Below, one piece after another: positions 28,186-31,449 of a stretch of DNA of 64,000 bases. This DNA is from Clostridium sp. MB40-C1 (lineage in GTDB: Bacteria; Bacillota; Clostridia; Clostridiales; Clostridiaceae): contig NZ_CP133189.1 in the NCBI RefSeq assembly GCF_030913655.1, positions 1,178,001-1,242,000 of the forward strand. The letters run 5' to 3'. A program made the position numbers and the translations under genes. How positions within the stretch are numbered: the stretch's first letter is position 1; every line of letters begins with the position of its first letter. A model generated the notes under the pieces. It was not told where the DNA came from. It did no database searches and worked only from the letters and a program-made list of their open reading frames with translations.

Positions 28186-28214
28186 TTGACTTTTATAAAT
28201 TGAAGTGATAAACT
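28186..28214 (+). promoter_or_regulatory. Promoter of attenuator-like leader
   Basis: TTGACT (28186-28191), 17-bp spacer, TAAACT (28209-28214). Transcription would begin near 28221, about ten bases before the strong Shine-Dalgarno of the leader ORF. Confidence 0.5.
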
Positions 28215-28245
28215 AAAAAACAATAAAGTTTAGGAGGAATTAATT

Positions 28246-28302
28246 ATGAAAAACTTATCAAATATAGCAATGCAAGTTGTCTTTAATAGCCAATTTATAT
28301 AG
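28246..28302 (+). CDS. Leader peptide (18 codons) of ABC transporter operon
   Basis: ATG with AGGAGGAATTAATT before it encodes MKNLSNIAMQVVFNSQFI and stops at TAG 28300-28302. The stop codon lies exactly at the start of the first arm of the leader hairpin set, and codons 14-16 (AATAGCCAA) can pair with TTGGCTAT at 28373-28380. A real ribosome binding site on an 18-codon frame ahead of competing hairpins and terminators is what a transcription attenuator looks like. No run of one amino acid codon is present, so the signal is not obvious. Confidence 0.55.
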   Translation: MKNLSNIAMQVVFNSQFI

Positions 28303-28412
28303 GGTTTGTTCCTAGCGATTTGACATAGGTACAAACCCAGCAATTCTTTGAATTCAAAGGTTTGTATCTATGTTGGCTATAAAGTATAAGTTTTTTATTA
28401 ATTATTTTATAG

Positions 28413-28453
28413 AAAGCCACATAGATAATCTATGTGGCTTTTACGTTTTTTCT
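28413..28453 (+). terminator. Leader terminator 1
   Basis: AAAGCCACATAGAT (28413-28426) pairs with ATCTATGTGGCTTT (28428-28441), followed by TTACGTTTTTTCTT. Its left arm overlaps the proposed antiterminator pairing with 28366-28378. Confidence 0.75.
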
Positions 28454-28467
28454 TTATGTATGTATTT

Positions 28468-28499
28468 AAAAGCCACATGGAGTACCATGTGGCTTTTTT
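28468..28499 (+). terminator. Leader terminator 2
   Basis: AAAAGCCACATGG pairs perfectly with CCATGTGGCTTTT around AGTA, ending in six T. Sequence is nearly a copy of terminator 1 (both carry AAAGCCACAT and ATGTGGCTTT), so the second may have arisen by duplication and gives a double stop before the ABC genes. Confidence 0.85.
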
Positions 28500-28531
28500 G
28501 CATACCCAAAAATATGGAGAGGAGAATTTTC

Positions 28532-29425
28532 ATGGAAGTAGCAACAGGTGTATTAGTACAAAGCTTAATCTTATCAATTATGGTGTTAGGGGTGTATATA
28601 AGTTATAAAATTTTAGATTTCCCAGATTTATCTGCAGATGGAAGTTTTACTTTAGGAGCAGCAATAATAGTTATGATGTTAAAGAATGGGGTATCTCCTA
28701 TTGTAGCCAGTTTATTTGCTTTGTTAGGTGGAGCAATAGCAGGTTTATTAACAGGAATACTTCATGTAAAGCTTAAAATATCAAATTTACTTTCTGGAAT
28801 TTTAGTAATGGGAATTTTATATTCATTAAATTTAAAAATTATGGGAAAGGCTAACATTCCTATTTTTAGTGAAAAAAATATATTTTATAATCTTAACCCT
28901 TTAATAATAACTTTCATATTTGTTTTTTTAGTTAAAGTTCTAATTGATATATTTTTAAAAACAGGATTGGGATATACGCTAAAAGGTGTTGGAGATAATA
29001 TTCAGATGATTAAATCTTTAGGAATAGAAGTGGGGAGAATCAAAATATTAGGACTTATGATATCTAATGGACTTATAGCACTTTCAGGAAGTATGATGGC
29101 ACAATATCAGGGCTTTTCGGATATTTCTATGGGTATTGGTACACTAGTTTTAGGAATAGCATCAATAATTGTGGGAACATCAATAATTAAAAAGAAAACA
29201 CTGATTAAGGAAACAACCCTTGTAATAATAGGTACATTGATTTATCAAATTACCATATACTTCGCTATGAATATAGGATTCACTCCGAGTGACTTGAAGA
29301 TGATAACATCTTTAGTAATCATTATATTCCTAGCTGTTAGTGAAGTTAAAAATCATGAAGAAAAAAAATATGGGAGGTGGATTATAAATGCTAAAAATTC
29401 AAAACTTATCAAAAAGCTTTCATAA
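28532..29425 (+). CDS. ABC transporter permease (TrpY/COG4120 type)
   Basis: 297 residues with about eight membrane segments, including VGVYISYKILDFPDLSADGS-type opening (residues 19-38) that marks this permease family, and IVASLFALLGGAIAGLLTGIL. It belongs to three-gene transporters found with an ABC_sub_bind lipoprotein, whose substrates (tryptophan or tyrosine in some streptococci) are known only in few cases. The ATG at 28532 has GGAGAGGAG; the longer frame starting at 28370 would begin inside the terminator region and is rejected. Its 3' end overlaps the ATPase gene by 38 bp. Confidence 0.88.
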   Translation: MEVATGVLVQSLILSIMVLGVYISYKILDFPDLSADGSFTLGAAIIVMMLKNGVSPIVASLFALLGGAIAGLLTGILHVKLKISNLLSGILVMGILYSLNLKIMGKANIPIFSEKNIFYNLNPLIITFIFVFLVKVLIDIFLKTGLGYTLKGVGDNIQMIKSLGIEVGRIKILGLMISNGLIALSGSMMAQYQGFSDISMGIGTLVLGIASIIVGTSIIKKKTLIKETTLVIIGTLIYQITIYFAMNIGFTPSDLKMITSLVIIIFLAVSEVKNHEEKKYGRWIINAKNSKLIKKLS

Positions 29426-30143
29426 TTCATATATAGGTGAAAATAAATTATTTTCAAATCTGAATCTAAATATTAATAAAGGTGAGTTTGTAAGCATAAT
29501 TGGTAGCAATGGTACAGGTAAGTCAACATTACTAAATATAATTTCAGGAATAATTCAAGAAACTTCAGGAAATATTTTACTTCAAGGTAAGGATATAACC
29601 AAAATGCCTGAACATAAAAGAACTAAATTTATAAGTAGAGTTTTTCAAAATCCAGCTTTAGGTACTTGTCCTTCTATGACTGTAAGAGAAAATCTGTCTT
29701 TAGCATTAAATAAAGGTAAATTAATTAATCTTAGATACTGTCTAAGATACAAGACGGACTACCTAGAAAAATTATTAGAAGATATATCTTTAGATTTAAA
29801 AAAGCTATTAGATGTAGAGGTTAAATACCTTTCAGGTGGACAAAGACAAGCTTTATCATTAATAATGGCAAGCGTATGTGAACCAAAGGTATTGTTATTA
29901 GATGAGCATACGGCTGCATTAGATCCTAAGACTTCTAGTGAAGTAATGAAACTTACTGAAAAAATTGTAAAAGAAAAAAATATTATTACATTAATGGTAA
30001 CTCATAATTTGAAGGACGCAATACAGTATGGTAATAGACTTATTATGTTACATAAAGGTGAAGTTATCTTAGATTTAAATGAAGATGAAAAGAAAAAAAT
30101 AACTGTGGAAGACATATTAAAAAAATTTGAATATGCAGTATAA
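29388..30143 (+). CDS. ABC transporter ATP-binding protein (COG1101 type)
   Basis: 251 residues: Walker A GSNGTGKST, signature LSGGQRQALS, Walker B VLLLDEHTAALDP (note His after DE, usual in this family) and H-loop MVTHNLKDA. It drives the permease encoded just before. Overlaps that gene by 38 bp; GGGAGGTGG lies 8-16 bases before the ATG. The next gene, the substrate-binding lipoprotein, starts 17 bp after its stop. Confidence 0.92.
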   Translation: MLKIQNLSKSFHNSYIGENKLFSNLNLNINKGEFVSIIGSNGTGKSTLLNIISGIIQETSGNILLQGKDITKMPEHKRTKFISRVFQNPALGTCPSMTVRENLSLALNKGKLINLRYCLRYKTDYLEKLLEDISLDLKKLLDVEVKYLSGGQRQALSLIMASVCEPKVLLLDEHTAALDPKTSSEVMKLTEKIVKEKNIITLMVTHNLKDAIQYGNRLIMLHKGEVILDLNEDEKKKITVEDILKKFEYAV

Positions 30144-30159: not shown

Positions 30160-31119
30160 ATGAAAAAAATAGTTATTGGAATATTAATATTAGCTAGTGT
30201 ATTAACAGGATGTGCAAAAACAGGTGATAAAAAGAAAATGGTAAATATAGGTATAAGCCAAATTGCAGAATATGTTGCTTTAGATGAAAATAGGGAAGGA
30301 TTTATAAAAGCACTTGAGGAAAATGGATATAAAGATGGAGAAAATATAAAAATAGATTATCAAAATGCTCAAGGAGAAATAGCTGTATCTCAAACTATAG
30401 CAAAGAAATTTTCTTCAGAAAAGAAAGATCTAATTTTTGCTATAGGTACTCCAGCAGCTCAAGGTGTATTTAATACAACAAAGAAAATACCAATAATGAT
30501 TAGTTCTGTTACTGATCCAGTAAAAGCTGAATTAGTTAAATCTATAGAAAAGCCTGAAACTAATGTATCAGGAACTTCAGATTATTTACCTGTGGAAAAA
30601 CAGTTAGATTTAATAAAGAAGCTTGTACCAAAGGCAAAGAAAATAGGATTTATGTATAATACAAGTGAAGTAAATTCAGAAGTTCAATTAAATGAGCTAA
30701 AGAAAGTTGCTAAGGGCTATGAAATTATCCCTTCAGGAGTAACAAGTACAAATGAGGTAAACAGTAATATAATTAGCTTACTAAAAAAGATAGATGTATT
30801 ATATGTACCAACAGATCAACTAATTGTGTCATCAATGCCTATAATAGCTAAGCATACATTACAAGCAAAGATACCTATAATTGCAGCAGAAAAAGGAAGT
30901 GTAAAAGCAGGGGCGCTAGCTACTGCAGGAATTAACTATTATAAATTAGGCTATAAAACAGGTGAAATGGCGGTTTCAATATTAAAGGGAGAAGATATTT
31001 CTAAAATGCCAATTAAAATGGCAGAGGAAGCTGACGTATATATAAATGAAGATAGTTTAAAAATATTGAATATTCAAAAACCATCAATGGAGAATGTTAA
31101 ATATATAAAAGGTAAATAA
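30160..31119 (+). CDS. ABC transporter substrate-binding lipoprotein (ABC_sub_bind family)
   Basis: 319 residues with a lipoprotein signal (IVIGILILASVLTGC) and a two-lobed periplasmic-binding-like domain: VNIGISQIAEYVALDENREGF, DLIFAIGTPAAQGV, PIMISSVTDPVKAELV, KIGFMYNTSEVNSEVQ, and GINYYKLGYKTGEMAV. It captures the ligand outside the membrane for the permease. ATG 30160 follows GAGGGGG; the frame from 30127 includes that site and is rejected. Ligand unknown; family members bind aromatic amino acids or nucleoside-like molecules in some species. Confidence 0.9.
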   Translation: MKKIVIGILILASVLTGCAKTGDKKKMVNIGISQIAEYVALDENREGFIKALEENGYKDGENIKIDYQNAQGEIAVSQTIAKKFSSEKKDLIFAIGTPAAQGVFNTTKKIPIMISSVTDPVKAELVKSIEKPETNVSGTSDYLPVEKQLDLIKKLVPKAKKIGFMYNTSEVNSEVQLNELKKVAKGYEIIPSGVTSTNEVNSNIISLLKKIDVLYVPTDQLIVSSMPIIAKHTLQAKIPIIAAEKGSVKAGALATAGINYYKLGYKTGEMAVSILKGEDISKMPIKMAEEADVYINEDSLKILNIQKPSMENVKYIKGK

Positions 31120-31200: not shown

Positions 31201-31234
31201 TCTTCATAAAGTCTTCAAAAGATTTTGATATGAT
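31201..31234 (+). promoter_or_regulatory. Promoter/operator copy 2, before Cys-rich peptide gene
   Basis: TCTTCA direct repeats at 31201-31206 and 31212-31217 (11-bp period), then candidate -10 TATGAT (31229-31234). Shared with 22739-22772. A likely binding site for an OmpR-family regulator; the one encoded at 31689 is the nearest candidate. Confidence 0.5.
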
Positions 31235-31272
31235 TGAGGTGTAAATTTAATAGATATGAGGAGGAAATACAA

Positions 31273-31449
31273 ATGAAAAATAAACTTTTAGCATTAATTA
31301 TTGGGGTTGGAGTATTAGGGGCATCATCTCTTTCAGCATTTGCTTTAGGTGAAACAAATACTAACAGTACATCTAATAGTAATAAAGCTAAATCATGTTG
31401 CATACAAAATGCACAATGTTGTGTACAAAAAGCTGCATGTTGTAAATAA
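31273..31449 (+). CDS. Small secreted peptide with three Cys-Cys pairs (CCx5CCx5CC)
   Basis: 58 residues: a signal peptide (LLALIIGVGVLGASSLSAFA), a Ser/Thr/Asn linker and the tail SCCIQNAQCCVQKAACCK. The Cys pairs are exactly seven residues apart. I do not recognise the family. The tail suggests metal binding, disulfide cross-links or a modified peptide, all speculative. ATG 31273 has GAGGAGGAA before it; the frame from 31234 includes the promoter and is rejected. It has its own promoter and a perfect terminator at 31459, with a two-component system following. A truncated duplicate of its leader lies at 22739-22847. Confidence 0.75.
   Translation: MKNKLLALIIGVGVLGASSLSAFALGETNTNSTSNSNKAKSCCIQNAQCCVQKAACCK

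Follow-up and report, generated by a model that had tools for sequence, protein, structure and literature searches.

The region between positions 28186 and 28531 of the window (the whole stretch of 64,000 nucleotides of Clostridium sp. MB40-C1 that was analysed) is very probably a leader-peptide transcription attenuator, in which the translating ribosome would act as the sensor and whose predicted target is an ABC importer of the aromatic-amino-acid type. The prediction was reached by comparing the leader with its homologues and by modelling the folding of the transcript.

Architecture of the leader

All the elements of the leader are located on the forward strand. A promoter-like site (28186-28214), read from the sequence and with a consensus scan, consists of the -35 element TTGACT (28186-28191), a spacer of 17 nt and the -10 element TAAACT (28209-28214) preceded by TG, and it matches the consensus in 9 of 12 positions; by itself the scan is no evidence of a promoter, since the number of such sites between 27000 and 32500 is not above the shuffled expectation (30 observed versus 35.3 expected). 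A Shine-Dalgarno sequence, AGGAGG (about 28233-28238), precedes the leader ORF MKNLSNIAMQVVFNSQFI, of 18 codons (28246-28302), which starts with the ATG at 28246, ends with the TAG at 28300-28302 and has homologous ORFs in other leaders. Counted from the stop codon, this ORF has V V F at positions -8, -7 and -6.

Several segments that covary in the homologues, and that can pair with more than one partner, overlap or follow the ORF. Arm B, GGGTTTGTTCCTA (28302-28314; arm 1 of a first-pass annotation of this DNA), whose first base is the last base of the leader stop codon (28302), pairs with arm C (28323-28338; arm 2), which may pair instead with arm D (28359-28384; arm 3), and D in turn has A, C or E as possible partners. 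Arm A (28281-28293) lies within the ORF, and covariation in 89 sequences assigns it to the 3' half of D (28373-28384); this A:D pairing, which involves the last codons of the ORF, is an addition to the arms previously listed. Terminator 1 (28412-28442, with arms E, 28415-28427, and F, 28429-28442), detected by a terminator scan and by covariation, has 14 pairs, and its near-copy, terminator 2 (28468-28497), detected by a hairpin rule, has 13. In the window, 12 of the 13 positions of B:C are paired, C:D has 15 pairs including one G-U, and D forms 13 pairs around a single bulged base with the left arm of terminator 1. The competition of arm 2 for arms 1 and 3, and of arm 3 for the left arm of terminator 1, was therefore found as the first-pass annotation had described it, and reading the sequence also confirmed its promoter-like site, its strong ribosome site, the 18-codon ORF ending at arm 1 and the second near-copy terminator. 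The left arm of terminator 2 is also similar to E, and a single antiterminator might serve both tandem terminators.

Folding of positions 28220-28500, as had been proposed earlier, gave -91.9 kcal/mol versus -51.5 (sd 4.8) in 200 shuffles, a z-score of -8.4, and the segment that forms the A:D / B:C junction (28282-28386) gave a z-score of -5.9. These z-scores and the recurrence of the leader in relatives show that the arrangement is more than chance. Two plain terminators lying between operons, with complementarity arisen by chance, would agree with a promoter scan that is not above chance; nevertheless, this explanation is contradicted for the family by the fold of 28220-28500, by the covariation in homologues and by the match between codons and genes described below, and its probability is negligible. 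A scan of the window against Rfam at gathering cut-offs matched no family, the T-box RF00230 and the leader families included, and at these cut-offs the earlier statement that there is no known aptamer motif holds; yet the window is a sub-threshold relative of RF04312.

Homologous leaders and compensatory changes

A search at the DNA level in 8 genomes of the genus revealed homologous leaders in five others, where they precede a Na+-symporter gene and not ABC genes; the idea that the leader travels with the ABC genes was rejected because of this location. None of the relatives of the ABC permease in the genus (about 50% identity) has an adjoining match to the model. A covariance model built on six leaders (R1) gave matches, at E 0.01, in 53 of the 206 genomes of the family, a few of them false or echoes of palindromes, and a DNA pattern led to 26 named contigs, including those of Clostridium, Clostridioides, Metaclostridioides, Romboutsia, Tepidibacter, Oceanirhabdus and Enterococcus. 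From 115 matches, 92 in the forward direction were kept after dropping matches on the reverse strand that echoed a terminator palindrome, and contigs that were present twice. The resulting alignment, A4, has 89 rows, some of them close kin; L124 and L125, judged false by eye (coding sequence with no such leader ORF), and L127, which is below the score line and was counted later, were left out. Model R2, based on A4, matched 82 of the 225 genomes of the order (21 of 56 genera) and 5 of 398 genomes across the phylum, two of the latter in the window's own genus; among 48 new places from the scan of the order, 40 were taken in.

By our own rule, at least one terminator-like hairpin is present in 88 of the 89 A4 members and at least two in 48 of the 89; by eye, the multiple terminators are mostly look-alike copies, except in L027, L103 and a few more. 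The genome of the window has three copies of the attenuator, whose leaders contain V V F, F F N N H F and L L L L, respectively. The second, with Phe-type codons (L028, C1:3423008-3423175), is located ahead of one Na+ symporter, and the third, with Leu-type codons (L100, C1:265295-265449), ahead of another.

The mutually exclusive arms are backed by compensatory changes. In A4, the paired cells amount to 95.2% for A:D, 93.7% for B:C, 92.0% for C:D, 92.4% for D:E and 95.7% for E:F, and the cells changed on both sides are 110, 123, 74, 22 and 68, respectively; none of 500 shuffles reached the paired percentage, the two-sided cells or the covariation score of any of the five helices, and sliding the partner, which was the second control, strongly reduced these three measures for all five, in statistics where related rows are not independent and where A:D, B:C and E:F are favoured because A4 was fitted to those three, C:D and D:E being outside the model. 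For two coarser measures, the pairs with a two-sided change and the further pair types, the observed values were equalled or exceeded by 18 and 1 of the 500 shuffles for A:D, 0 and 0 for B:C, 361 and 132 for C:D, 3 and 4 for D:E, and 8 and 0 for E:F, so that C:D fails to beat the shuffles on two of the five measures. Only 10 of 29 Trp members have a clear A:D, defined as a helix whose length is matched by no more than 1 of 100 shuffles. The covariance model of homologous leaders that had been suggested for this DNA, with compensatory changes to be looked for, thus shows covariation in all five helices, and the 1:2 / 2:3 / 3:4 exclusivity typical of attenuators is backed across the 89 homologues.

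Control codons and downstream genes

Using a rule of 8-45 codons, an end near the arms and a preference for ATG and a Shine-Dalgarno sequence, a leader ORF was detected in 88 of the 89 A4 members, the exception being L069, which is cut by the end of its locus. An ATG and a Shine-Dalgarno-like motif are present in 88/88 of these ORFs, a figure that is partly a matter of choice since the ORF finder preferred ATG with such a motif. Phe, Tyr or Trp occupy position -7 in 66% and position -6 in 74% of the 88 ORFs versus 1-12% at positions -9 to -19, and homologues have codon runs such as FFF, YYYY, HHH, LLLL or WQxW at a matching distance from the arms. The run occupies positions -8 to -5 in the Leu leaders; in most His leaders it occupies -4 to -2, the stop codon coming about two codons earlier, but its distance from the arms is similar. 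Synonymous codons are used near the stop (TTT 130 and TTC 22, TAT 126 and TAC 29, CAT 33 and CAC 5, and six Leu codons). The earlier remark that the ORF has no run of a single codon is correct for the window, with its V V F, yet homologues do have runs.

Codon class was compared with the next gene at 164 loci, namely the 89 of A4, 30 of RF04312 and 45 others (40 R2 matches in the order, four across the phylum, L153-L156, and L127). The codon class was the commonest of F/Y, H, L and W among the last nine residues, with W favoured, and the gene class was whichever member of a closed list of gene families lay closest, up to 1.7 kb away; representative genes were named by NCBIfam, several under cut-offs. 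Since these families were chosen from the same loci, the following counts show consistency within the set only, and 44 of the 164 loci came from R2 once the codon-gene rule had already been seen (35 of the 40 R2 order matches are His). The His class has 46 members, followed by hisS (44), hisZ (1) or an amino-acid binding protein (1); in the Leu class one symporter group is next in 10/10; and the Trp class of 30 precedes a TrpX-type binding protein (24), TrpB (3) or none of the families (3). In the Phe/Tyr class, importers are next in 73 of 76, that is, another symporter group (41), an ABC permease (17), a TrpX-like binding protein (8) and a BrnQ-type carrier (7), the rest being aroE (1), hisS (1, at L155, whose leader has both F/Y and H) and none (1). 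Two loci, L069 and L181, have no leader ORF, and the exceptions to the match are L155, L048, L199, L202 and L225. The control codons therefore fit the genes downstream across the family, in a comparison that does not decide the case of the window's own V V F. The first-pass annotation had proposed that the signal may be new; judged by these codons, the signals look like ordinary amino acids.

Another role for the ORF would be that of a TnaC-like arrest peptide, whose conserved nascent end (...F R stop) would hold the ribosome at the stop codon with free amino acid. The C-terminus of the leader peptide has indeed R at -1 in 51 of 88 members and an aromatic residue at -2 in 78%, and the Trp branch has endings such as WQ(S/N)WRR. 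Nevertheless, the consensus fold also pairs this end at the nucleotide level (TAGATA with TATCTA of D), and its conservation could be due to this; the residues that vary with the gene are mainly upstream of it, at a place from which a stalled ribosome would cover A while leaving B open; and a ribosome held at the stop would, in the model presented below, switch the genes off like normal termination. An arrest peptide is thus quite improbable as compared with an attenuator that responds to stalling at control codons.

Some Phe/Tyr-type leaders are placed ahead of less expected genes. One of them (L153) precedes aroE, encoding shikimate dehydrogenase, which is the only biosynthetic gene in the class besides that of L155. 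Seven others (L053, L077, L046, L081, L052, L087 and L122) precede genes similar to branched-chain-amino-acid carriers, named with TIGR00796 for L053 and L077 and by similarity for the remaining five; their leaders suggest that these carriers may move aromatic amino acids or be regulated by them. In Clostridioides difficile strain 173070, two contigs have importer leaders of different type, one of Phe (RFFSSQFS) and one of Tyr (YYYYYSHYF) (L068 and L076).

A model for the switch

In the proposed mechanism, scarcity of the charged tRNA would cause the ribosome to stall at V V F, the control codons at positions -8 to -6, where it would mask A and leave B free; B:C would then form, D would take E to make the D:E antiterminator, and the polymerase would read through. 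With plentiful amino acid, a ribosome at the stop codon would mask both A and B, C would take D, E:F would form and transcription would end. When the leader is not translated, A:D and B:C together would lock D, which would also lead to termination. Terminator 2, with its E-like left arm, may be a second exit controlled by the same antiterminator.

This switch is reproduced by folding in silico with a masked ribosome, for which a footprint from 18 bases before to 11 bases after the first A-site base was assumed and the transcript was folded to the end of E. In equilibrium folding of 88 members, the D:E value was 0.17 with no ribosome, 0.40 with the ribosome at the best position (four codons before the stop) and 0.08 with the ribosome at the stop. 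In sequential folding, in which B:C was allowed first, as it is made first, the values for the 82 members with the stop in the usual place were 0.35, 0.74 and 0.08, respectively, with high values spanning -7 to -3. The no-translation state is not uniform among members, since D:E is still favoured without a ribosome in 38% of these 82. For the window, sequential folding gave 0.11 with no ribosome, 0.87 with the ribosome at V V F and at N, about 0.7 at the next two codons, no more than 0.09 from the last Phe onward and 0.00 at the stop. Stalls further upstream in the window ORF (-14 to -9) also gave values of 0.55-0.85; for this reason folding alone does not single out V V F, and it is the codon runs of the homologues that point to the control codons.

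The amino acid that the window copy is most likely to sense is phenylalanine, as judged from position -6, and we hold this assignment with moderate confidence. A variant of the same explanation is that this copy responds to several amino acids, or to any slowing of translation, its codons having drifted to V V F. The presence of VVF not only in the window but in three relatives (L029, L030 and L032), and of FVF in two more (L034 and L044), would agree with such drift, as would the modelled response to stalls higher in the ORF; in contrast, Phe or Tyr is kept at -6 in 16 of the 17 listed ABC-permease leaders, the window included (the 17th, L120, has a displaced stop), which indicates that the key codon is kept and makes the variant unlikely.

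Relation to the trpB motif and sRNA_2410

The available text of PMC11109978 describes the trpB motif (RF04312), whose members number more than 900, as a strong candidate for a riboswitch, and its authors did not exclude a classic attenuator. The window scores 40.8 bits against it (E 1.8e-4), below the gathering score of 59, and the two other copies in the same genome score 48.1 and 47.8 bits. Both share arms C, D, E and F and importer genes of the same family; however, the Rfam matches start at arm C and omit the ORF and arms A and B, and RF04312 members have Trp codons where the window's branch has Phe/Tyr. In the order around genome G449, 87 of 246 genomes have RF04312 at E 1e-5, 47 of them over the cut-off, and 50 matches (30 over the cut-off and 20 under) were inspected. 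At least one Trp codon was present in the best-scored ORF just upstream in 50/50 of them; among the first 30, at least two were present in 27, mostly at -6 and -3, with 58 Trp in 587 residues. Start codon, Shine-Dalgarno sequence and length, but not content, entered the score of the upstream ORFs, and these ORFs lie before the point at which the Rfam match begins, so that this count does not depend on the way in which the loci were detected. With R2, whose training set has no Trp members, the G449 member was recovered at E 3.9e-10, and in the window's genus the matches to RF04312 under the cut-off belong to F/Y and Leu leaders. Two other matches under the cut-off, outside the order of G449 (L131 and L132), have other genes and no Trp leader and were taken as chance. 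By these comparisons we place the trpB motif as the putative tryptophan branch of this attenuator family.

The first-pass annotation had left two sensors open, translation of the ORF or a ligand-bound three-way junction. In the second case, a small molecule bound at the A:D / B:C junction would set the choice of terminator and the ORF would be incidental. The junction folds stably in the window, and the filing of the related trpB motif, with attenuation left open by its authors (PMC11109978, available text), is in line with a riboswitch; but the B:C loop, the C-D linker and the third stem vary by eye in 6 folds and in the printed alignment rows, and a riboswitch leaves unexplained both the control codons that match the genes and the Trp codons of the 50 inspected RF04312 members of one order. 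A riboswitch is therefore highly improbable, and translation of the ORF is strongly favoured as the sensor because the control codons match the downstream genes.

The family RF02863, connected to sRNA_2410 through its family name, is filed as a small RNA, in contrast with two loci, L056 (an Enterococcus member, 104.8 bits) and L041 (68 bits), that have F/Y leader ORFs, precede importer genes and were the only 2 of the 18 loci scanned that passed its gathering score of 61; the window is below this score, with 30.1 bits. In the available text of PMC5593968, sRNA_2410 of E. faecium is a 195-nt RNA by RNA-seq, with two transcripts on a Northern blot, and by analogy these two forms would be as expected of a terminated leader with two terminators. 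The main text of PMC3166299 and that of PMC7724050 have no mention of 2410.

From these relationships it seems likely, with less confidence than the attenuator in the window, that one ancestral scaffold, conserved by the need of every arm to fit several partners, spread through the Clostridia and the lactic-acid bacteria and was re-targeted among Phe, Tyr, Trp, His and Leu by swaps of a few codons in arm A and compensating changes in arm D. The scaffold would unite RF04312 and RF02863, neither of which would then be as filed, and the window, with V V F, may be passing to a new specificity. If this is true, the trpB motif, with its more than 900 listed members, gains a concrete and testable mechanism and an expected signal, charged tRNA-Trp, and the small RNA listed as RF02863 becomes a terminated leader; it would also show a regulatory RNA that changes its signal in evolution without losing its fold.

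Comparison with known attenuators

The leader-peptide attenuators of the his and trp operons of enterobacteria consist of a short ORF with control codons, mutually exclusive arms, a terminator and an antiterminator. The window has all of these, its terminators being of the intrinsic type; however, in the family of the window the arm that bears the codons, A, pairs with D instead of with B, the partner it has in the his leader, and two near-copy terminators are often present, unlike in the enterobacterial leaders. The bacteria concerned are better known for T-boxes, which control the same kinds of genes as the window family; the window has no T-box at gathering.

In the available text of PMC9413887 and PMC2965389, His-rich leader peptides are described before hisZ/hisS-type genes or his operons in the Bacillus cereus group, Peptostreptococcaceae and Erysipelotrichales, with a terminator and an antiterminator as in the family presented here; these attenuators are treated group by group, and neither the trpB motif nor leaders of the Phe/Tyr/Leu/Trp types were found to be linked with them in that text. 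The available text of other papers describes the Phe-type uORFC-13-1 before aroF in Acholeplasma (PMC8632094), the ilvB uORF in Corynebacterium (PMC11109978) and a leucine-rich attenuator peptide of Staphylococcus aureus (PMC5794164), for which the same general mechanism has been proposed; their hosts and genes differ. A trpX gene under T-box control has also been described (PMC9382623, available text). Thus, as far as the available text of these sources goes, His leader peptides in Firmicutes, and single Leu, Phe and ilv cases elsewhere, are already in print, while a common scaffold across five amino acids, the A:D pairing, a sensor for the trpB motif and any report joining this motif to a leader peptide were not found in the open-licence PMC literature.

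The importer and its binding protein

Three genes that match profiles of an ABC importer follow the leader on the forward strand: the permease (BPD_transp_2, 28532-29425), which is the first gene past the leader, the ATPase (29388-30143) and a substrate-binding protein similar to TrpX and CD0873 (30160-31119), whose NCBIfam TrpX score is under the cut-off and whose assignment includes an alignment of the pocket. This protein has E and Y where the tyrosine-binding CD0873 has Glu-263 and Tyr-279; according to the available text of PMC6816091, the structures show that Tyr-279 is replaced by Gln in the Trp-binding SP1069 and that Glu-263 favours Tyr. Among the binding proteins compared, residue 279 is Gln in 26/26 with W leaders and Tyr in 25/25 with F/Y leaders, or 25 and 23 by a stricter count that removes duplicates and misplaced proteins (L128 and one row of L144 are the same protein, and the proteins of L060 and L076 are upstream of their leader), in a test mixed with lineage: the Trp proteins come from one order and those of the F/Y leaders mostly from clostridia, the contrast being provided by five enterococcal loci and L154. 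For importers of obscure cargo, the control codons would therefore be a readable label of the amino acid; for Trp versus Phe/Tyr this label agrees with the structurally defined residue of the pocket in all the sequences compared, although the lineages of the Trp importers and of most Phe/Tyr importers also differ.

Within the F/Y class, residue 263 (E in clostridia, A/S in enterococci) does not track F versus Y codons, and the expectation that these codons follow a Tyr or Phe pocket residue was rejected, since no correspondence was found. Tryptophan, which had been guessed as the signal of the window from the name TrpX, was also rejected, given a Tyr-type pocket and an ORF that lacks Trp codons. 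The window thus shows a mismatch, its pocket being Tyr-type (E/Y) while its leader codons are those of Phe and Val; the importer itself may carry Tyr, judging by these residues, and sensing one aromatic amino acid while importing another is possible. Between the ABC operon and a two-component system lies a 71-codon ORF (31234-31446, forward strand) that matched nothing in Pfam or NCBIfam, and that has a stretch resembling a signal peptide and C-terminal paired cysteines (CC..CC..CC).
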